DNA from: Clostridia bacterium
Lineage (GTDB): Bacteria > Bacillota > Clostridia > Christensenellales > Aristaeellaceae
Reading direction: 5' to 3'
Length of the DNA: 64,000 nt
Assembly: GCA_017547285.1 (NCBI GenBank)
Contig: JAFYQB010000113.1
Span: 1 to 64,000, forward strand
Numbering within the stretch: the first letter of the stretch is position 1; each line of letters starts with the position of its first letter. This document shows positions 40,981 to 54,291 of this stretch, in pieces. The notes beneath the pieces are model-generated. The model had not been told where the DNA came from. It ran no database searches and saw nothing but the letters and a program-made list of their open reading frames with translations. A program made the position numbers and the translations under genes.

Positions 40981-42207
40981 ATGAGCCCCAGTATTTACCT
41001 TGAAGAAGCCCTCAAGGACGTATTACGTACGTCCAATTTTGTCCACGGCATGTTTAATCTCATCGTCGCGCCCTGCGGCAGCGGCAAAACCACAGCAGCT
41101 ATCAACGTGATTTCCAAACAGGCATCCAGCCCGCGCACAGCGCTAATTTTGATTGATACGACCAACGGCAAGCAGCGCCTGGGACGGTTGAAGGAGCTTA
41201 TACTGCCATATTCTTTCTACGAAGAAAGTCTTGATCGAACATGGTTTCCATCTGCCGAATTTGATCCAAGCAAAATCGTAGTAACCACCTATGCACAGTT
41301 TGGCGTGTGGGAATACCACAACCCAGGCTTCCACTTTTTCTTCGACGTCATCATCTGTGACGAAGCGCATAACATGATCCGCTTTCCGAACTTCAAAAGC
41401 AAAAAGAAAGACCAAGCACCTAAAATCAACTTCGCTGCCATAGCACGCGATGCCATCTGCCGCGCGGTTTGGAATTGCGATACGCTTGTGGTTGGCATGA
41501 CTGCCACGCCGGACAACATAGGCCAACTGAATTGTTGGATCAATCCCTTGCCAATTGACACGGCGGCGCTTCATCATTATGAGACCAAGAACACATACTA
41601 TTACGCCAATCTGTCTGAATTGCTGTGGTATCTTCCAAAAGGCAAACGCGGCGCGTTGTATGTAACTCAAGTGGAGAAGATGCTAGAGCACGAACAAACC
41701 GCCATTGCCGCAGGATTTAAGCCCATTTGTGTATGGAGTCCAATCGCAGAACACAAAATGACTCCCGAACAGGAAGCGGCGCGCCTCTATATTCTTGAGC
41801 ATGAAGAAGTGCCGCCGCAATATGATTTGCTTATTTTCAACGACAGCTTGGCTACCAGCATCAATCTGTACGGAGAAATGAACTTTATCATTATCCACAC
41901 TTCAAACGAATCCACCATCACCCAAGCGCGCGGCCGCTATCGCAATCATTTGGAGAATCTTTATTTGCACAGCGTAGATGAATGTGGGGTTATCGTGCCG
42001 CCGCAATACCTAAACCGCCGTTTATACGAGCAAGACTATAAAGAACTGCGCGCGGCCATTGGCATTATGGATCCCAACGATTCCAAACGTCTGCTACCGA
42101 AGGCACGATTGAAGCAGCTGTTGGAAGCAAACGGATATGCCGTCACCGAAAATTTGCGCGACCGAAAAGGACGATACAGAACCATAGCAAAACGCGAAGA
42201 CGTGTAA
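40981..42207 (+). CDS. DEAD/DEAH-type helicase-like ATPase of the island
   Basis: A 408-residue SF2-like protein. Walker A is APCGSGKTT (residues 30-38), the Walker B is CDEAHNM with DEAH at 127-130, and TATP is motif III. A later QARGRYRN segment corresponds to the QxxGRxxR motif VI. It is shorter than full helicases and lacks extra domains, so it may be a loader or a simple translocase. Comparable proteins occur in Clostridial integrative elements. The start is the first ATG after a weak GGAGAC; regulatory context is not clear. The cargo lies just before it. Confidence 0.82.
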   Translation: MSPSIYLEEALKDVLRTSNFVHGMFNLIVAPCGSGKTTAAINVISKQASSPRTALILIDTTNGKQRLGRLKELILPYSFYEESLDRTWFPSAEFDPSKIVVTTYAQFGVWEYHNPGFHFFFDVIICDEAHNMIRFPNFKSKKKDQAPKINFAAIARDAICRAVWNCDTLVVGMTATPDNIGQLNCWINPLPIDTAALHHYETKNTYYYANLSELLWYLPKGKRGALYVTQVEKMLEHEQTAIAAGFKPICVWSPIAEHKMTPEQEAARLYILEHEEVPPQYDLLIFNDSLATSINLYGEMNFIIIHTSNESTITQARGRYRNHLENLYLHSVDECGVIVPPQYLNRRLYEQDYKELRAAIGIMDPNDSKRLLPKARLKQLLEANGYAVTENLRDRKGRYRTIAKREDV

Positions 42208-44989: not shown

Positions 44990-46213
44990 GTGAGAGACAA
45001 GGTAAACGAGTCAAAGATTAATCAGAATAATATTTTGCGAAAGGGGGAATCACGTCATAGTAAAGGTACTTATCAGTACAGATGGACAGATGAGGCCGGG
45101 GAGCGACATTCTGTTTATGCGCAGACATTAGAAGAACTCCGGCAGAAGGAAGCAGAGATAGAACAGGATGAGCGCGATAGGATAAAGGCAGAAGCACGTA
45201 ATGTAACAATCAACGACATGTTCAAGCTTTGGGTCCAACTCAAGCGAGGTCTGAAGGACAATACTTTCCAGAATTATCTGTACATGTACAATCAGTTTGT
45301 CGCGCCCCGCTTCGGTCAGAAAAGAATTTCAACGCTTATGAAATCTGATGTGAAGCGCTTCTACAATACACTTGTCGATGAACGTTGGCTATCCATCTCC
45401 ACGATTGATAATATTCACACTGTTCTTCATCAGGTGTTGGACATGGCGGTTGACGATATGTACATTCGCCGTAACCCATCCGATAATGTCATGAAGGAAC
45501 TCAAGCAGTCTGTTTCTTCAAGAAATGAGAAGCGTCGAGCGTTAACAAAACAGGAACAGGATTTGTTCCTTAATTATTTGCGGCAGTCTGAAAAGTATCG
45601 TCATTGGTATCCTGTCTTTGCTGTTATGGTAGGAACAGGCTTGCGAGTAGGGGAGGCAGTAGGTCTTCGTTGGTGTGATATTGATCTTGAAAACGGGATG
45701 ATTGATGTCAACCACACGCTGATCTACTACAGGCATGCGGTGAATGGGTGCTACTGCAATGTTCATACGCCGAAGACAGTCAACGGCATTCGTCAGGTTC
45801 CAATGCTTGACTTTGTCAAAAGCGCCTTCGAAGAAGAACGGCGCAACCAAGAGTTGGCAGGGGTTCGATGCGAGGCAATTGTTGATGGATACTCTGACTT
45901 CATCTTTGTTAATCGCTTTGGGCAGCCACAACATCAAGGCACTCTTAATAAGGCTCTTCGCAGAATCATTCGTGACTGCAATGATGAGATCATGCTGAAA
46001 GGCAAAAAGAATGCTCTGATGCTTCCACATTTCAGTTGTCATAGTCTGCGGCATACGTTCACAACCAGACTGTGCGAAGCAGGCGTCAATATCAAAGTGA
46101 TTCAAGACGCTTTGGGGCATGCTGATGTGTCGACGACGCTGAACATTTATGCAGATGCAACAAGAGATTTGAAGGTCAGCGAGTTCAAAAACTTTGAAAG
46201 GTATGGGACTTGA
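44990..46213 (+). CDS. int: Tyrosine integrase, Tn916-like
   Basis: A 407-residue site-specific recombinase. Residues about 20-60 form an arm-type DNA-binding domain (KGTYQYRWTDEAGERHSVYA), 70-170 the SAM-like core-binding domain, and 185-400 the catalytic domain. Catalytic residues are Arg219 in GTGLRVGE, His351 and Arg354 in HSLRHTFTTR, His377 in LGHADVSTT and nucleophile Tyr387 in NIYADA. The GTG start follows GGAAAGG. It ends 150 bases from the right repeat, the usual place for an integrase. Its target is the lysS 3' end. Confidence 0.94.
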   Translation: MRDKVNESKINQNNILRKGESRHSKGTYQYRWTDEAGERHSVYAQTLEELRQKEAEIEQDERDRIKAEARNVTINDMFKLWVQLKRGLKDNTFQNYLYMYNQFVAPRFGQKRISTLMKSDVKRFYNTLVDERWLSISTIDNIHTVLHQVLDMAVDDMYIRRNPSDNVMKELKQSVSSRNEKRRALTKQEQDLFLNYLRQSEKYRHWYPVFAVMVGTGLRVGEAVGLRWCDIDLENGMIDVNHTLIYYRHAVNGCYCNVHTPKTVNGIRQVPMLDFVKSAFEEERRNQELAGVRCEAIVDGYSDFIFVNRFGQPQHQGTLNKALRRIIRDCNDEIMLKGKKNALMLPHFSCHSLRHTFTTRLCEAGVNIKVIQDALGHADVSTTLNIYADATRDLKVSEFKNFERYGT

Positions 46214-46681: not shown

Positions 46682-47111
46682 TTATTCTTCATACCTTGCG
46701 GCGATGTCTGCAAGAGCTTTCTTCATGCCTTCTTTGACACTCTCAGGGCCAATGATCCTGACAGCCTTGCCAAGACCAAACACCCAGCCATAAAATTGAT
46801 TGCTCACCGCAACGGAGACGGTCACTCTAAAGTGTCTATCGTCCTCTTTCATGGCCACGACATCCCGCCCAAATCTATCCATGACTGCCCCCATCATGCG
46901 ATTCTGGAAGACCATGGTGACAGGGACAGTTTCACCACCGAACATGCTGAAGGTGTACTTTGTGTAGGCAGACATGTCCAGCTTGGCGAACTCTTCCGCC
47001 CCCTCTCTTTCAAGAGAGGCTATTTCCACATCAGCAATCATTGTGACCATAGCTTCAGTGTTGTCCATGTGATCCACTCTGAAATGCTTGAATTTGCCAT
47101 CTGTGTATCTG
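46682..47111 (-). pseudogene. C-terminal remnant of a WYL regulator, second element
   Basis: About 140 codons that align along their whole length with the last part of the intact WYL gene at 12558: FRVDHMDNTE against YRVDRMKYVE, YTKYTFSMFGGETV against FARRTFSMFSGNTT, and SNQFYGWVFGLGKAV against SEQFYGWLLGFGRRV. The reading frame continues upstream of the apparent ATG to about 47111, where an IS3 remnant breaks in. The HTH and most of the WYL domain are lost, so it cannot function as a regulator. A hairpin (46651-46673) lies just past its stop. Confidence 0.8.
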
Positions 47112-47331: not shown

Positions 47332-47420
47332 TTGCCTTGCTTCAAGTTTTCAGAACCAGCACCAATCGAATCTGCCTGAAAATTCAAAGCAGTTTATGTG
47401 CCGCTTATGACGAAAACATT

Positions 47421-49118
47421 TTATCCCTTCACAGATCCCATCAGAACACCCTTGGTAAAGTGCTTCTGCAGGAAGGGATAGACGCAGATGATGGGCACGG
47501 TACCCACCATGATGGTGGCGTACTTGACGGAGTTGGTGGGCGCCCACACCTGCACTTCCGGCAGAACGTCATCCGCCAGCGAGCCCTGAGACAGAATGAC
47601 CACCTGGCGCAGCAGCACCGTGATGGGGAACTTGTTGGGATCGCTGATGTAGATCATGGCGCGCTGGTAGTTGTTCCAATGGCCCACCGCGTAGAACAAC
47701 GAGAATGTGGCGATGGAGGCCATGGACATGGGAATCACGATGTGGATGAAGGACTGGATCTCGTTGCAGCCGTCGATGCGCGCAGATTCCTCAATGGAGG
47801 CAGGCAGCTGCTGGAAAAAGTTCTTCATGATAATCAGGTTGGAGGAGGAGATCAATACCGGCAGCCAGATGGCCCAGTAGGTATTGGTCAGGCCCAGCGT
47901 GTTGGAGACCAGAATGTAATCCGGCACCAGACCTGCGTGGAACAGCATGAAGAAAATAACCAGCTTCATCATCCAGTTGCGGCCGGGCAGATCCTTTTTG
48001 GACAGCGCGTAGGCCGTGACGGAGGTCAGAACAATGTTCATGCCCGTGCCTGCAATGGTAATCAGGAACGAGTTAAGAATGGAGCGCATGGTACGCTGGG
48101 AGAAGGCGATCATTTTGTAGGCGCTGAAGTCCAGCTTGCCGAAACGGAACTGGGCCAGACCTGTGGAAGAGAACGAGCCAACCGCCACGTACAGCAGCGG
48201 AGATACCATTACGGATGCCAGAACGATAAAGAAATCGTAGATCAGAACGTCTGCCAGCATGCTCAGCGGAAGATGTTTGGGCGCTTTAATGCACACAATG
48301 CCAATGATCAGCAGTTCCACACCGAGCACCAGCAGAATGCACCAGGTAAGTGCTGCGGAGAAGAAGAGCAGTACGCTCTCCCATACTGTTACCGTGGGCA
48401 GCGCTGCGGACAGATCACCCAGCAATGCGGTCAAAGCTGTTTTGGCTTCGGTGTAGGCGGCATAGGTTTCATCCTTTACCGCTTCAGCGGCGGTGTATAC
48501 CTGCGCAGCAGCATCGTAATCCGCCTGCAGCTGGGCCACTTCCTCTGCGGTTGCGGTGGAATCTTTCTTCTGTGCATTGGTCAGCGCCTTTTTGGCTTTG
48601 GACTGGGCGCTCTTGTGTGTTTTGAGTTCTGCGGCTGCATCATCGTAAGCTGCCTTGGTATCCTGACGCAGTGCGGAGGCTTCCATCAGCATTGGCTGCC
48701 AGCTTTCAAGGCCGTCGTTCGCCGCGAGGCGTTCACCCAGCATTGCAAGCTCGGAATCGTATTCCGCCATCTGACTTGTGAGACGATCGTACTTCCGGCC
48801 TTCAGGCAGCTGATCGCGCTGGTTGCTCAGAGACTGCTGTTTGGCGGCGCTTACCTGCTCGGCAATGCTTTCCAGACCGGCGTTGAGATCCTGCCCCATG
48901 GCGGTCAGAACTTTGTCATCATCCAGAAGCGCAGTCTGCTTTCTCAGACCGCCAAGCAGCGCCTGACGGGTGGACAGGGTCTGGCGGGTGCCGCTTACGT
49001 TTACGATCATGCCAAACAAAGCAAGCGCGATCATAATCATGCCAATGACAGAAAGCGTCATGCTCTGGCGTTTGTTCAGGCGGGCTACCTGTTCATAATT
49101 CATGTCCAGTCGTTTCAT
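47421..49118 (-). CDS. YtcP-type ABC permease with N-terminal coiled-coil extension
   Basis: A 565-residue protein. The last about 280 residues are an ordinary YtcP-type sugar permease (SPLLYVAVGSFSSTGLAQF, ALSKKDLPGRNWMM, EAA loop ESARIDGCNEIQSFIHIVIP, tail FTKGVLMGSVKG). In front is an extra module: a transmembrane helix at about 20-42, some 200 residues of Ala/Lys/Glu-rich coiled coil (about 44-240), and a second strong hydrophobic helix at about 246-277. The coiled coil should lie outside the membrane. The usual family length is about 290-310. The frame is continuous, and the start has a TGATG overlap with the upstream permease gene. Confidence 0.9.
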   Translation of the reverse strand: MKRLDMNYEQVARLNKRQSMTLSVIGMIMIALALFGMIVNVSGTRQTLSTRQALLGGLRKQTALLDDDKVLTAMGQDLNAGLESIAEQVSAAKQQSLSNQRDQLPEGRKYDRLTSQMAEYDSELAMLGERLAANDGLESWQPMLMEASALRQDTKAAYDDAAAELKTHKSAQSKAKKALTNAQKKDSTATAEEVAQLQADYDAAAQVYTAAEAVKDETYAAYTEAKTALTALLGDLSAALPTVTVWESVLLFFSAALTWCILLVLGVELLIIGIVCIKAPKHLPLSMLADVLIYDFFIVLASVMVSPLLYVAVGSFSSTGLAQFRFGKLDFSAYKMIAFSQRTMRSILNSFLITIAGTGMNIVLTSVTAYALSKKDLPGRNWMMKLVIFFMLFHAGLVPDYILVSNTLGLTNTYWAIWLPVLISSSNLIIMKNFFQQLPASIEESARIDGCNEIQSFIHIVIPMSMASIATFSLFYAVGHWNNYQRAMIYISDPNKFPITVLLRQVVILSQGSLADDVLPEVQVWAPTNSVKYATIMVGTVPIICVYPFLQKHFTKGVLMGSVKG

Positions 49119-50287
49119 CAGTACACGCCCTCCTCTCCGGCCAGCTTGGCAAGGGCATTGGAGGTGACCACCAGGATCAGACTGACCACAGAACGGAAGA
49201 CGCCCACGGTGGCAGAGTAGGAATAGTTGGTGGTGCCCGCGGGGGCGGTAATGGTACCGGTCAGACCTACGTCATACACGTATGTGTCAAACACAGTGGC
49301 CACATCGCGGTTGTAGGAGTTAAGCATCAGGTAGATCTGGTCAAAGCCGCTGTCCAGGAACGAACCCATGCGCAGGATCAGCAGGGTGATGATCGTGGGC
49401 AGGATGCAGGGCAGCGTGATGTGCAGAAGCTGCTTGAAGCGGCCTGCGCCATCGATGACCGAGGCTTCATACAGCTGCTCATCCACGCCGGAGAGCGCGG
49501 CCAGATAGATGATGGTGCCCCAGCCGGATTCCTTCCAGATCAGTTCGATGATGTACATGGGACGGAACCATTCCTCACTCATCATGAAGGGAATTTCCGT
49601 GCCGCCGGCATTCTTGATCAAACTGTTGATCAGACCGTTGGGGGAGGGGCCCAGAAGCATGAGCATAATGGAACCCAAAACCGTCCAGCTCACAAAGTGA
49701 GGCAGGTACAGAACGCTCTGGGTCACGCGCTTGAAGGGCATGTTTTTGATCTCGTTAAGCAAAAGCGCCAGCATAATGGGCACAGGGAAATAGAACAGAA
49801 TGTTCAGAACAGCCAGAGAGAGCGTGTTCTTCAGGAGCATCGGGAAATCGCGGTAGGTAAAGAACTGCTTAAAGGAAAGCAGAATGGGATCCAGCCATTC
49901 CACACGGCCGTTACGGGCCAGCGTGGGCGAATAGTTCTGGAAAATGATCTTCAGGTTCAGAACCGGCAGCAGTTTGAAGATAAAATAATATGCGCCTGCA
50001 CCCAGCAGCATGGCATACAGCCAGCGGTAGCGCAGAATATGGCGCAGTTTTTTGGGATCTTTTTCATTGGTGCGGAATACCGCAAAAGACAGCAAAAACA
50101 CAACGATGCCAACGATCACCGTCAGCAGTTGCGCACTGTTGATCGAATTCAGGAGCCAGTTATTCAGGTTTTCCAGCAGGTTGCCGCCAAAAATCAGCGC
50201 AGCCAGCGTAACAGCCAGCGAAACAACCATTAAAGAAAGAGAGATTTGCCGCACGATCGGCGGATTTTTTTTCACATCCCGGATCAT
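49118..50287 (-). CDS. LplB-type ABC permease with two extra N-terminal helices
   Basis: A 389-residue permease. From about residue 85 it is a normal LplB protein (EAA loop EASVIDGAGRFKQLLHITLP). Ahead of that are two extra transmembrane helices (about 15-38 and 51-72) joined by a short hydrophilic loop. The EAA loop and length of the core fit a full transporter half. It shares one base with the start of the YtcP partner (TGATG). The start has GGAG nine bases upstream. Confidence 0.92.
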   Translation of the reverse strand: MIRDVKKNPPIVRQISLSLMVVSLAVTLAALIFGGNLLENLNNWLLNSINSAQLLTVIVGIVVFLLSFAVFRTNEKDPKKLRHILRYRWLYAMLLGAGAYYFIFKLLPVLNLKIIFQNYSPTLARNGRVEWLDPILLSFKQFFTYRDFPMLLKNTLSLAVLNILFYFPVPIMLALLLNEIKNMPFKRVTQSVLYLPHFVSWTVLGSIMLMLLGPSPNGLINSLIKNAGGTEIPFMMSEEWFRPMYIIELIWKESGWGTIIYLAALSGVDEQLYEASVIDGAGRFKQLLHITLPCILPTIITLLILRMGSFLDSGFDQIYLMLNSYNRDVATVFDTYVYDVGLTGTITAPAGTTNYSYSATVGVFRSVVSLILVVTSNALAKLAGEEGVY

Positions 50288-50380: not shown

Positions 50381-51898
50381 TTACTCGGCGTGATAGGCAG
50401 CATTCACCTGATCGATGATCTGCTGACCGCCCTTGGCCAGCCAGTCCTGACGGGCCGCTTCGAAGCCTTCGGCGTCGATGGTGCCGCTCATATAGGCAAC
50501 GCGGGCGTCAGAGATAATGGTGGCGATTTCGGTCTGCAGGTTGCGCATTTCATCGCTCATGTAGCCAACGGACATATCAACCACGCAGCGGTCTTCGATG
50601 CTCAGGCTGTAAGCGGTGATCTGCTGGGTCGCGGTCATGCCCTGACCGTAGTCCAGAGACTGCACACGGCGGGGGAACATGGAAGCAAACACTTCGCTGG
50701 AGCCGTCGTCTTCGCGTGTCTTCTTCTGTTCGTCGGAAACGGTGATCTTGCCGTCCGCATCCTTGGTGTAGTGCAGGCCTTCCACGCCAACGGCGAGGTA
50801 GATGCCGCCCTTGTCATTCAGAGCCACGCAGAAGTCGATGATCTTCTGAACGGTTTCTTCATCCTTCACGGAAGCAGTGGGGATCAGGATGCCGCCCAGG
50901 CCGCCCACGCTCAGCACGCTGTTGATCACAGCTTCGCCGTCAGCGGTGTAGAGATCCTGGTTCTGCTTGATCACGGCTTCGGGATGCACGTTGATAACGT
51001 TGGCATACTTGGTGCCGGCAGCATTGGTGGCGGTGGTGATCATGGAACCGGAAACGCCATTGGCCAGGGGGCCGTGCTTATCGGTGTTGATGGCGAAGTC
51101 GGTGTTCATGTAGCCGTTGACATACATCCAGTTGAACAGATCCAGCGTCTCCATGTACTCGTCGAAGAAGAAGTAGGGCATCAGGTCGCCGTTCTCGTCT
51201 TCGCCCCAGTAGTTGGGAGCGCCGTTCATAACAGCCAGGGTGTTGAAGCCGGCATAGGTCAGCTCGTTGTCCTTGTTGTCGCAGTAGGCAAAGCCAATGG
51301 TATCATCCACGCCGTTGCCGTCGGGGTCTTTGGTGGTGAAAGCTTCGACCATGGCCTTGAAGGTATCGATATCGGTGGGAACTTCCAGACCCAGCTTGTT
51401 CAGCCAGTCTTCACGGTACAGCACGCCAACGCGGGCAGCGGCAGCCATGGAGGGGAACAGGTAGTTGCGGCCTTCGATGGAGGTAACGGCCAGAGCGGAC
51501 TTACTGGTCAGTTCCTTCTGGATGAACTCGTTGCCGGCAAGAATGTCGGTCAGATCCCAGAAAGCGCCGTCCTTGCACATCTGAATGTAGTTGGCATTGG
51601 TGGTCAGACCGGAATTGACGACCATCACCATGGGCTGATCGTCAGAGGACATCACGGTGTTGAACTTGGTGGTGTAGTCGCCCTGAGGAGCCCAGGTAAC
51701 CTGCAGATCCACGTTCAGTTCCTTTTCAATGGCTTCCAGCACGGGGTTGCCTTCTTCGCCGGTGCAGCCTACGGGCTCAACATCAGCATAGTAGGGAACA
51801 TGCACGGTGATTACAAAGGGCGCTTCTTCCGCAGAAGCAAAGCTCATCATGCCCATCAGCATCATCAGAGCCAGCAGCAGGGATACCAGTTTACGCAT
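50381..51898 (-). CDS. Extracellular sugar-binding protein of the extended-permease importer
   Basis: A 505-residue family 1 solute-binding protein with a signal peptide (MRKLVSLLLALMMLMGMMSF, cleavage after ASA) and no lipobox. Mature blocks include DDQPMVMVVNSGLTTN, FTTKDPDGNGVDDTIGFA and YFFFDEYMETLDLFNWM. Long LplA-like type. It is the first gene of the operon with the two extended permeases, expressed from a perfect promoter, with AAGGAGG before the start. Codon use suggests high expression. Confidence 0.92.
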   Translation of the reverse strand: MRKLVSLLLALMMLMGMMSFASAEEAPFVITVHVPYYADVEPVGCTGEEGNPVLEAIEKELNVDLQVTWAPQGDYTTKFNTVMSSDDQPMVMVVNSGLTTNANYIQMCKDGAFWDLTDILAGNEFIQKELTSKSALAVTSIEGRNYLFPSMAAAARVGVLYREDWLNKLGLEVPTDIDTFKAMVEAFTTKDPDGNGVDDTIGFAYCDNKDNELTYAGFNTLAVMNGAPNYWGEDENGDLMPYFFFDEYMETLDLFNWMYVNGYMNTDFAINTDKHGPLANGVSGSMITTATNAAGTKYANVINVHPEAVIKQNQDLYTADGEAVINSVLSVGGLGGILIPTASVKDEETVQKIIDFCVALNDKGGIYLAVGVEGLHYTKDADGKITVSDEQKKTREDDGSSEVFASMFPRRVQSLDYGQGMTATQQITAYSLSIEDRCVVDMSVGYMSDEMRNLQTEIATIISDARVAYMSGTIDAEGFEAARQDWLAKGGQQIIDQVNAAYHAE

Positions 51899-52100: not shown

Positions 52101-52775
52101 GTGAATACCATTTTCTGGGCGGGTGATTCCACCGTTAAGCAAAACAGCGTCCTTACCTGGCCACAGACCGGCATTGCACAAATGTTTGATCGTTTTACCC
52201 GTCGACCGGATGTTTGCATCGCCAATCACGCTGAAAACGGCCGCTCCACCAAATCCTTTCTGGATGAAGGCCGGCTTGCCGCTATTTATGACTGCATTAC
52301 GGAAGGTGATTTTCTGTTTGTGCAGTTCGGTCACAACGATGAAAAGGAAGAAGATCCCGCCCGCTATGCAGATCCGGACGGAGAATTCTGCGAAAATCTG
52401 GAACGGTTTGCCAACTGTGCGCGCAACAAGCGGGCCGTTCCGGTGTTCATCACCCCTGTTACGCGCAGGGGTTTTGCCGATCCCAAAGCCCAATACCACC
52501 ATGACCGCTGGGCAGCCGCCGCGCGCCGCATGGGTGAAAAGCTGGAGGTCGCCTGCATTGACCTGACTGCTCTGAGCGAGGAACTGCTGATCCACACGCC
52601 GGAGGAAGTGCGCGACAGCTGGTTTATGCCGGATGGCACCCACCTGAAGCCTGAGGGTGCGATGATGTTCGGCGATCTGATCGCCAAAGCGCTGTACCGG
52701 CTGGGCGGCGAATACCGCGCGCTGCTTGCACCGGAGTATGCGGAGCGTTTGAGAGGAGAAGCCGGCAATGCGTGA
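52101..52775 (+). CDS. SGNH esterase, rhamnogalacturonan-acetylesterase-like (CE12)
   Basis: A 224-residue SGNH hydrolase with block I AGDSTVKQN (Ser10), block II NGRSTKSF, block III FGHNDEK, and the Asp-His pair in PDGTHLKPEG. The GDSTV and DGTHL forms are typical of CE12 acetylesterases that deacetylate pectin rhamnogalacturonan or xylan. No signal peptide, so it acts inside the cell. GTG start after GGGAGG. It overlaps the downstream GH43 gene by eight bases. It points to acetylated pectic oligosaccharides as the imported substrate. Confidence 0.87.
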   Translation: MNTIFWAGDSTVKQNSVLTWPQTGIAQMFDRFTRRPDVCIANHAENGRSTKSFLDEGRLAAIYDCITEGDFLFVQFGHNDEKEEDPARYADPDGEFCENLERFANCARNKRAVPVFITPVTRRGFADPKAQYHHDRWAAAARRMGEKLEVACIDLTALSEELLIHTPEEVRDSWFMPDGTHLKPEGAMMFGDLIAKALYRLGGEYRALLAPEYAERLRGEAGNA

Positions 52776-54291
52776 CCGCCTCTATCTGCCCGACTTGGGC
52801 AACGGACAATACCAGAATCCCATTCTCCTGTGCGATTACTCCGACCCGGATGTCATCCGCGTGGAAGATACCTATTATATGACCGCATCCTCTTTCAACT
52901 ATGTGCCGGGTCTGCCCATTCTTACCTCCAAAGACCTTGTGAACTGGACGCTGGTCAACTACGCGCTTCCCCGCATCCCGGAGGAGCGTTTCAATGTGCC
53001 GCGCCATGCGCAGGGCGTGTGGGCGCCCGCCATCCGCTACCACGAAGGGCTGTTCTACATCTGCTACGGCATGCCGGACGAAGGCATCTTCATGGTTCGC
53101 ACCGCCGATCCGCTGGGCAAATGGGATGATCCCGTTTGCGTGCTGCCCGGCAAAGGCCTTATCGATCCATGCCCCTTCTGGGATGACGATGGCAAGGCGT
53201 ACATCATCCACGGCTATGCCAGAAGCCGCATCGGCTTCAAGAGCTTTCTTGGCATTTTTCCTGTTTCATGGGACGGCCTGCATGCCGTCGGCGAGGATCA
53301 CCTTCTTTACAACGGCCTTGCCACCCAGCCCACCATCGAAGGCCCCAAGGTGTATAAGAAAGATGGCTATTACTATCTGTTTGCGCCCGCCGGCAGCGTG
53401 GAAGTGGGATGGCAGACGGTACTGCGCAGCAGGGATATCCATGGCCCCTATGAAGAAAAAATTGTTTTGCAGCAGGGTGACACCCCGGTCAACGGCCCGC
53501 ATCAGGGCGGCTGGGTGACCACGCCGGATGGGCAGGACTGGTTTTTGCATTTCCAGAGCAAGGGGCCCTATGGGCGCGTGATGCATCTGCAGCCCATGTA
53601 CTGGGAGGATGGCTGGCCTGTGATGGGCGATCACGGCCAGCCCGTGCTCACGCATGAAAAACCTCATGCGCCTGTCTGCGAACTCCTCGGTCTGCAGGCC
53701 AGCGATGATTTCAAGGGCAGGCTGAACCTCGAATGGCAGTTCATGGGCAATCCATCCGCCGATGGCCATGAAGTGCTGGATGGCAGGCTGCGCCTGTTTG
53801 CGCGTCCTGCGCCCGAACCCTGCGAAGGCCTGTGGGGATATCCTGACATCATTACCCAGAAGATCTGCTGCCATAGCTTTGCCGCCGAAGTAACGGTGGA
53901 CGCTTCCGAACTGGACGAGGGCGCACAGGCCGGCATGGCGCTGCTGGGCGGCGAGTACTGCGGCGCGATCGTCTACCGCACGCAGGAAGGGCTGTTCATC
54001 GGCGATCTGCGCAGCAGCGGCCAGAGTGATGAAACCACCGAAGCCGATCCTCTGCCGGAGGATACCGATACCGTGCGTATCCGCATGCAGCTGATCAGGA
54101 CCGGCGAAAAGGAAGCGCAGGCGCATTTCTATTATTATGTGGGCGATCGTCTCTGCGCCATTGGCTCCACCTTCTGCCCCGGCCGGCATACCTGGGTGGG
54201 CGCACGCATCGCACTGTTCTGCACCCCGTTCGAGGGCGGCGAACACAGCTGGGCGGATTTCAGCGACTTCCGCGTGATACCGGAGGAATAA
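52768..54291 (+). CDS. GH43 glycosidase (xylosidase/arabinofuranosidase type)
   Basis: A 507-residue protein. The five-bladed propeller of GH43 covers about residues 15-315: general base Asp in DYSDPDVIRV, pKa-modulating Asp in LIDPCPFWDDD and general acid Glu in TIEGPKVYKK. A C-terminal beta-sandwich (about 320-505, LGLQASDDFKGRLNLEW onwards) matches GH43_C2. No signal peptide. Likely releases xylose or arabinose from imported oligosaccharides. Translationally coupled to the esterase gene and followed 2 bases later by the ankyrin-GH43 gene. Confidence 0.92.
   Translation: MRDRLYLPDLGNGQYQNPILLCDYSDPDVIRVEDTYYMTASSFNYVPGLPILTSKDLVNWTLVNYALPRIPEERFNVPRHAQGVWAPAIRYHEGLFYICYGMPDEGIFMVRTADPLGKWDDPVCVLPGKGLIDPCPFWDDDGKAYIIHGYARSRIGFKSFLGIFPVSWDGLHAVGEDHLLYNGLATQPTIEGPKVYKKDGYYYLFAPAGSVEVGWQTVLRSRDIHGPYEEKIVLQQGDTPVNGPHQGGWVTTPDGQDWFLHFQSKGPYGRVMHLQPMYWEDGWPVMGDHGQPVLTHEKPHAPVCELLGLQASDDFKGRLNLEWQFMGNPSADGHEVLDGRLRLFARPAPEPCEGLWGYPDIITQKICCHSFAAEVTVDASELDEGAQAGMALLGGEYCGAIVYRTQEGLFIGDLRSSGQSDETTEADPLPEDTDTVRIRMQLIRTGEKEAQAHFYYYVGDRLCAIGSTFCPGRHTWVGARIALFCTPFEGGEHSWADFSDFRVIPEE

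Follow-up and report, generated by a model that had tools for sequence, protein, structure and literature searches.

The gene at positions 47421 to 49118 (minus strand) of the window, the 64,000-nucleotide stretch of DNA from a Clostridia-type bacterium of the gut or rumen analyzed here, encodes in one open reading frame (ORF) a YtcP/MalG-like sugar permease of 565 residues with a genuine N-terminal module, comprised of a transmembrane (TM) helix, an ectodomain of about 200 residues, and a second TM helix. The module is encoded in frame, shows a conserved architecture, and evolves under purifying selection, and it has a single origin. It is predicted to form a folded, elongated helical bundle outside the cell. 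A putative and still tentative role, given slightly less than an even chance, is the docking or retention of the solute-binding protein (SBP) by an extracellular scaffold analogous to the P2 region of the maltose importer subunit MalF. The general picture of importer permeases is one of compact channels, with the extracellular work left to the binding protein. A permease that brings along an ectodomain of 200 residues, in a bacterium whose SBPs seem not to be lipid anchored, makes the retention of SBPs at the surface directly testable, and module-free paralogues of the same genome offer natural controls.

Architecture of the Extended Permease and Its Partner

The extended permease starts with a positively charged, cytoplasmic N terminus, whose first 20 to 22 residues hold 5 to 7 lysines or arginines, followed by TM1 (residues 21 to 39; 49002 to 49058, minus strand), the helical ectodomain (residues 44 to 244; 48387 to 48989, minus strand), TM2 (residues 256 to 278; 48285 to 48353, minus strand), a short, lysine-containing cytoplasmic linker, and the canonical YtcP/MalG core (residues 286 to 565; 47424 to 48263, minus strand). 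Both TM helices are seen in the AlphaFold model and by hydropathy, which places them at about residues 21 to 39 and 259 to 277 with about 200 residues between them. Positive-inside charge topology and the even number of added TM helices support a location of the module outside the membrane, as the earlier note had proposed.

The Pfam domain BPD_transp_1 covers only residues 387 to 557 (38.4 bits against a gathering cutoff of 26.4), and the normal YtcP paralogues of the same genome align from about residue 288 onward, which leaves about 285 residues as extra. Matches to the PDB sequences of AlgM2 (3e-38), SugB, and MalG are likewise confined to the core, which contains an EAA-type cytoplasmic loop (EESARIDGCNE) nearly invariant across five species. 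The partner permease and the SBP adjoin the gene as expected of a YtcP/MalG-like importer, and the protein is read as a variant of this family and not as a separate family, with the usual architecture of about 300 residues not kept. The Pfam match, the paralogue alignment, and hydropathy thus bear out the earlier description of a normal YtcP core preceded by a helix, a long helical stretch, and a second helix. The term insertion does not apply since the module is an N-terminal extension, and the ectodomain, described as rich in Ala, Lys, and Glu, is instead rich in Ala, Leu, Thr, and Gln, with about equal shares of Asp, Glu, and Lys. Pfam searches with the extension give hits only at E values above 0.02 and no wall-binding domain, and sequence searches of the PDB give nothing under 0.3.

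The importer genes lie on the minus strand in the order SBP (SBP_bac_8; 50381 to 51898), LplB-like partner permease (389 residues, BPD_transp_1; 49118 to 50287), and extended permease; this operon contains no ATPase gene, and a shared ATPase of the MsmX type, as expected of the family, may serve the importer. The partner has an extra N-terminal TM hairpin at residues 15 to 71 (50075 to 50245, minus strand), visible by hydropathy, as the earlier note had recognized, and without a counterpart in the sister systems. The short extracellular loop of this hairpin is better conserved than its TM helices, and the NCBIfam model for MalF matches the partner in its core only. LplB/YtcP-type importers (CUT1, MalFG-like, type I), such as AlgM1/AlgM2 and YteP/YtcP, belong to the same core family and share the gene order SBP-permease-permease and the EAA-type loop. 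In contrast to these importers, the YtcP-like permease of the window has about 285 additional N-terminal residues, and its LplB-like partner has the TM hairpin.

Authenticity and Selection

The stop codon of the partner gene and the start codon of the extended gene overlap as TGATG, which marks this start as the natural choice for translational coupling. When one genome per species is scanned, full-length homologues with starts at the same place are found in metagenome-assembled genomes (MAGs) of four other species. By best segment, the homologue from a goat cecum MAG (L032) is 66% identical to the extended permease, and those from two water buffalo MAGs (L033 and L034) and from L035 are 55% identical; over the whole alignment, identities of the four range from 56 to 66%. 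In all four loci, the SBP and LplB-like genes lie immediately ahead of the extended gene, with the permease starts at, or a few bases from, the preceding stop.

In the closest trio (L033, L034, and L035), dN/dS is 0.16 to 0.21 for the ectodomain, which marks it as a translated and selected segment, and 0.03 to 0.04 for the core, so that the ectodomain changes about five times faster; more distant pairs are left out since their synonymous sites are close to saturated. The TGATG overlap and the full-length homologues with the same start rule out a wrong start or a frame fusion, the explanation that the earlier note had named as fatal to its proposal if close homologues lacked the extension. An artifact in the wider sense, including a chimeric assembly or a functionless passenger, is hardly credible, as nothing in its favor was found and it is refuted by five species with the same junction, purifying selection, and the translational overlap.

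The several-fold faster evolution of the ectodomain compared to the core would also suit a docking site for a different protein, be it a secreted glycoside hydrolase, an adjacent transporter, or an external factor that evolves quickly (a phage, for example). The divergent neighbors of the importer in the window, a GDSL esterase (52101 to 52775, plus strand) and a GH43 glycoside hydrolase with a GH43_C2 domain (52768 to 54291, plus strand), which otherwise serve as context only, could be counted in its favor. Conservation of these hydrolase neighbors does not extend to the homologous loci, however, dN/dS stays below 1, and no partner has been identified, which makes this explanation improbable. 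As context, the GH43 neighbor suggests plant cell wall oligosaccharides.

Predicted Structure and Conservation of the Module

AlphaFold modeling from the extension alignment alone gives a mean pLDDT of 85.9 (about 78 to 98 in the ectodomain) and a pTM of 0.63, with helices at residues 8 to 41 (TM1), 44 to 63, 68 to 76, 78 to 102, 108 to 133, 135 to 183, 191 to 239, and 256 to 278 (TM2). The two 49-residue ectodomain helices would each be about 73 Å long if straight (at 1.5 Å per residue). In the full-protein prediction, the core remains at a pLDDT below 50 due to the shallow alignment, and this core model is not used. For the extension, Foldseek returns no match at an E value of ≤0.001, and VIA-align reaches Z scores of up to 11.5, the level expected of any helical hairpin. 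Long antiparallel helices of this kind are found in F-BAR domains, the AcrA/HlyD hairpins, and other helical-hairpin proteins (Z scores of up to 11.4), a likeness at an uninformative level that carries no functional inference.

The coiled coil of the earlier note is predicted to be helical, and signs of a classical heptad pattern are weak: a period near 3.5 is often the best one but exceeds shuffled sequences only in helix B and in three of five sequences. With heptad periodicity this weak, helical bundle is the safer term.

Ectodomain identity amounts to 66 to 72% within the closest trio and to 21 to 36% between less close species, compared to 83 to 91% for the core. Between the two subclades it peaks at 0.39 in the membrane-proximal residues 46 to 60 and again at 0.39 in residues 211 to 225, and it falls to zero at the hairpin tip (residues 181 to 195). 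Tyr158, Ala161, Ala211, Lys215, and Tyr219 are invariant in all five species and, judged by their distance from the turn near residue 187, probably sit about equally far up the hairpin. Indels occur mostly at the tip and in one interhelix loop, and a length of about 200 residues is kept while the sequence drifts.

This kept length, the position of the indels, and the low specific conservation of the distal ectodomain would all be expected of a spacer or wall-facing stalk, a bundle that supports the importer or sets its position with respect to the peptidoglycan and is constrained only in helical shape and rough length. The invariant residues in the middle of the hairpin suggest some specific contact or packing instead, the Pfam search reveals no wall-binding domain, and other importers of this bacterium work without such an addition; a spacer is considered rather unlikely. 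For SBP docking, the same conservation, highest near the membrane and around the five invariant residues, is a favorable sign.

Distribution and Origin

Full-length profile searches, along the lines suggested in the earlier note, find the extended form in four further species, bringing it to 5 of 200 genomes of the same family (the own genome, G073, G078, G153, and G166, the last four being the same records as L035, L032, L033, and L034, respectively). Within its own genus, it occurs in 1 of 11 sampled genomes. With the extension alone as the query, no further extended YtcP is found in order, class, and phylum samples of about 400 genomes each; the hits in other orders, L075, L076, and L159, match over short TM or coil stretches, and the first two are not permeases.

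In a tree of the permease core, the five extended forms constitute one clade (support, 100/99) whose neighbors are module free, among them the paralogue on contig C120 of the own genome. The sister permeases and the YtcP paralogues of the own genome lack the module, which was gained once. In the nearest module-free systems the partner permease begins directly at the core, so the hairpin of the partner most simply arose in the same clade as the module. The two additions co-occur in all five species, and the earlier view that the whole importer has been remodeled gains support from the N-terminal TM additions to both permeases in one clade.

This joint occurrence can be read in two ways. The added TM pairs may pack together, with the ectodomain mainly stabilizing or gating the permease heterodimer; the membrane-proximal ectodomain residues and the hairpin loop of the partner are among the best-conserved parts of the additions. 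Such an assembly function leaves the need for 200 residues unexplained, and the second permease of another importer with an extended subunit (the DUF3798 operon, described below) has no added hairpin as judged by eye; assembly is considered unlikely as the main role. The concerted remodeling of both permeases is also in line with the docking of the SBP.

Binding Proteins and the Proposed Scaffold

In all five species, the signal peptide of the SBP of the extended system has an AxA-type site and lacks a lipobox cysteine. Among 16 other SBPs of the same genome with a readable N terminus, pattern matching alone finds no lipobox-like cysteine in 11 and, in the remaining 5, a possible lipobox cysteine with an AxA-type site close behind. 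At loci L054 to L072 of this genome, most SBPs have signal peptides of the signal peptidase I type without a lipobox. No Omp85 is found in the genome, which is 92% complete. Judged from these sequences, the lack of Omp85 and the scarcity of lipoboxes fit a cell with a single membrane in which most SBPs are not lipidated. If secreted, the SBP would have neither an outer membrane nor a lipid to hold it.

The carbohydrate ABC importer made of the SBP and the LplB-like and YtcP-like permeases has gained, once, the TM-ectodomain-TM module on the YtcP-like subunit, and it has gained the TM hairpin on the LplB-like subunit. In the proposed mechanism, the module would act as an extracellular scaffold anchored in the membrane next to the translocation path, with its base packing against the hairpin of the partner, and would dock the unlipidated SBP or keep it near the permease pair. 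This would correspond to the work of MalF-P2, a β-rich domain between two TM helices of MalF. Precedent comes from the maltose importer of Escherichia coli, in which the P2 region of MalF contacts the binding protein MalE (PMC3150292). Both are large extracellular elements on one permease subunit. In contrast to MalF-P2, the module is all-helical and precedes the core of the MalG-like subunit, and the two are unrelated in sequence.

The consistent lack of a lipobox in the five SBPs, along with the absence of an Omp85 hit, argues for SBP docking. Several observations oppose it. Lgt-family matches are present in the genome, and lipoproteins can thus be made. The SBPs of the other species are 76 to 84% identical to the copy of the window, compared to the 21 to 36% of the ectodomain between less close species, which opposes an extensive specific interface. 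A lipobox is also missing from most of the remaining SBPs of the genome, although the module occurs in no YtcP match besides the extended permease; SBP retention thus does not depend on the module, and holding of the SBP by it cannot be the general answer in this cell.

Other Extended Permeases of the Same Genome

The extension profile weakly matches (E value, 6e-4) a BPD_transp_2 permease of 621 residues from the same family, whose operon also encodes a DUF3798 protein, an ATPase, and a second permease. Its copy in the own genome lies on contig C53 (L155, 2948 to 4819, minus strand), with further copies at L088 to L097. Like the extended YtcP, this permease has a TM helix, a charged, Ala-rich segment of about 230 residues, and a second TM helix ahead of the importer core, but it belongs to a different permease superfamily. 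The long form occurs in 10 of 297 sampled genomes of the order; all 10, the own genome among them, belong to the same bacterial family. The matches of relatives from other families, and of two from this family, begin only at residue 280. A common origin of the two modules is unsupported, as hhalign gives a probability of 12% over 26 columns at TM1 only. That another, unrelated importer of this genome carries a comparable module adds to the case for SBP docking.

An OppC-type permease of 623 residues (L156, 4192 to 6063, minus strand; contig C117) carries five RCC1 repeats (RCC1_2, 1.6e-36) between the N-terminal TM domain OppC_N and the BPD_transp_1 core, and the SBP next to it also lacks a lipobox. 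Large extracellular additions to importer permeases thus recur in this genome, as the extended YtcP, the DUF3798-operon, and the OppC/RCC1 permeases illustrate, although few of its 75 permease-domain matches (63 plus 12) have them. That one family has repeatedly and independently built extracellular domains on importer permeases to catch nonlipidated SBPs in a single-membrane cell is doubtful at present; if true, such domains would provide an alternative to the lipoprotein SBP. No paper describing an extended YtcP, an OppC with RCC1 repeats, or such an arrangement in DUF3798 systems was found in the open-access literature. A MalG-like permease of 390 residues on contig C2 (L139, 1468 to 2640, minus strand) shows, by eye, an extra N-terminal hairpin of two TM helices separated by about 45 residues.

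Other Features of the Locus

A Tn916-type integrase gene (44990 to 46213) lies near the 3′ end of the extended permease gene, in a region that also contains a helicase-like ORF (40981 to 42207). Together with the patchy distribution of the extended form, these genes hint that the region is possibly mobile. An ORF of 131 residues with only a WCX domain (46682 to 47077, minus strand) is possibly a remnant of a YafY-type regulator. The extended permease gene is mirrored by an antisense ORF of 627 residues (47337 to 49220, plus strand), which shows no sign of being a gene.
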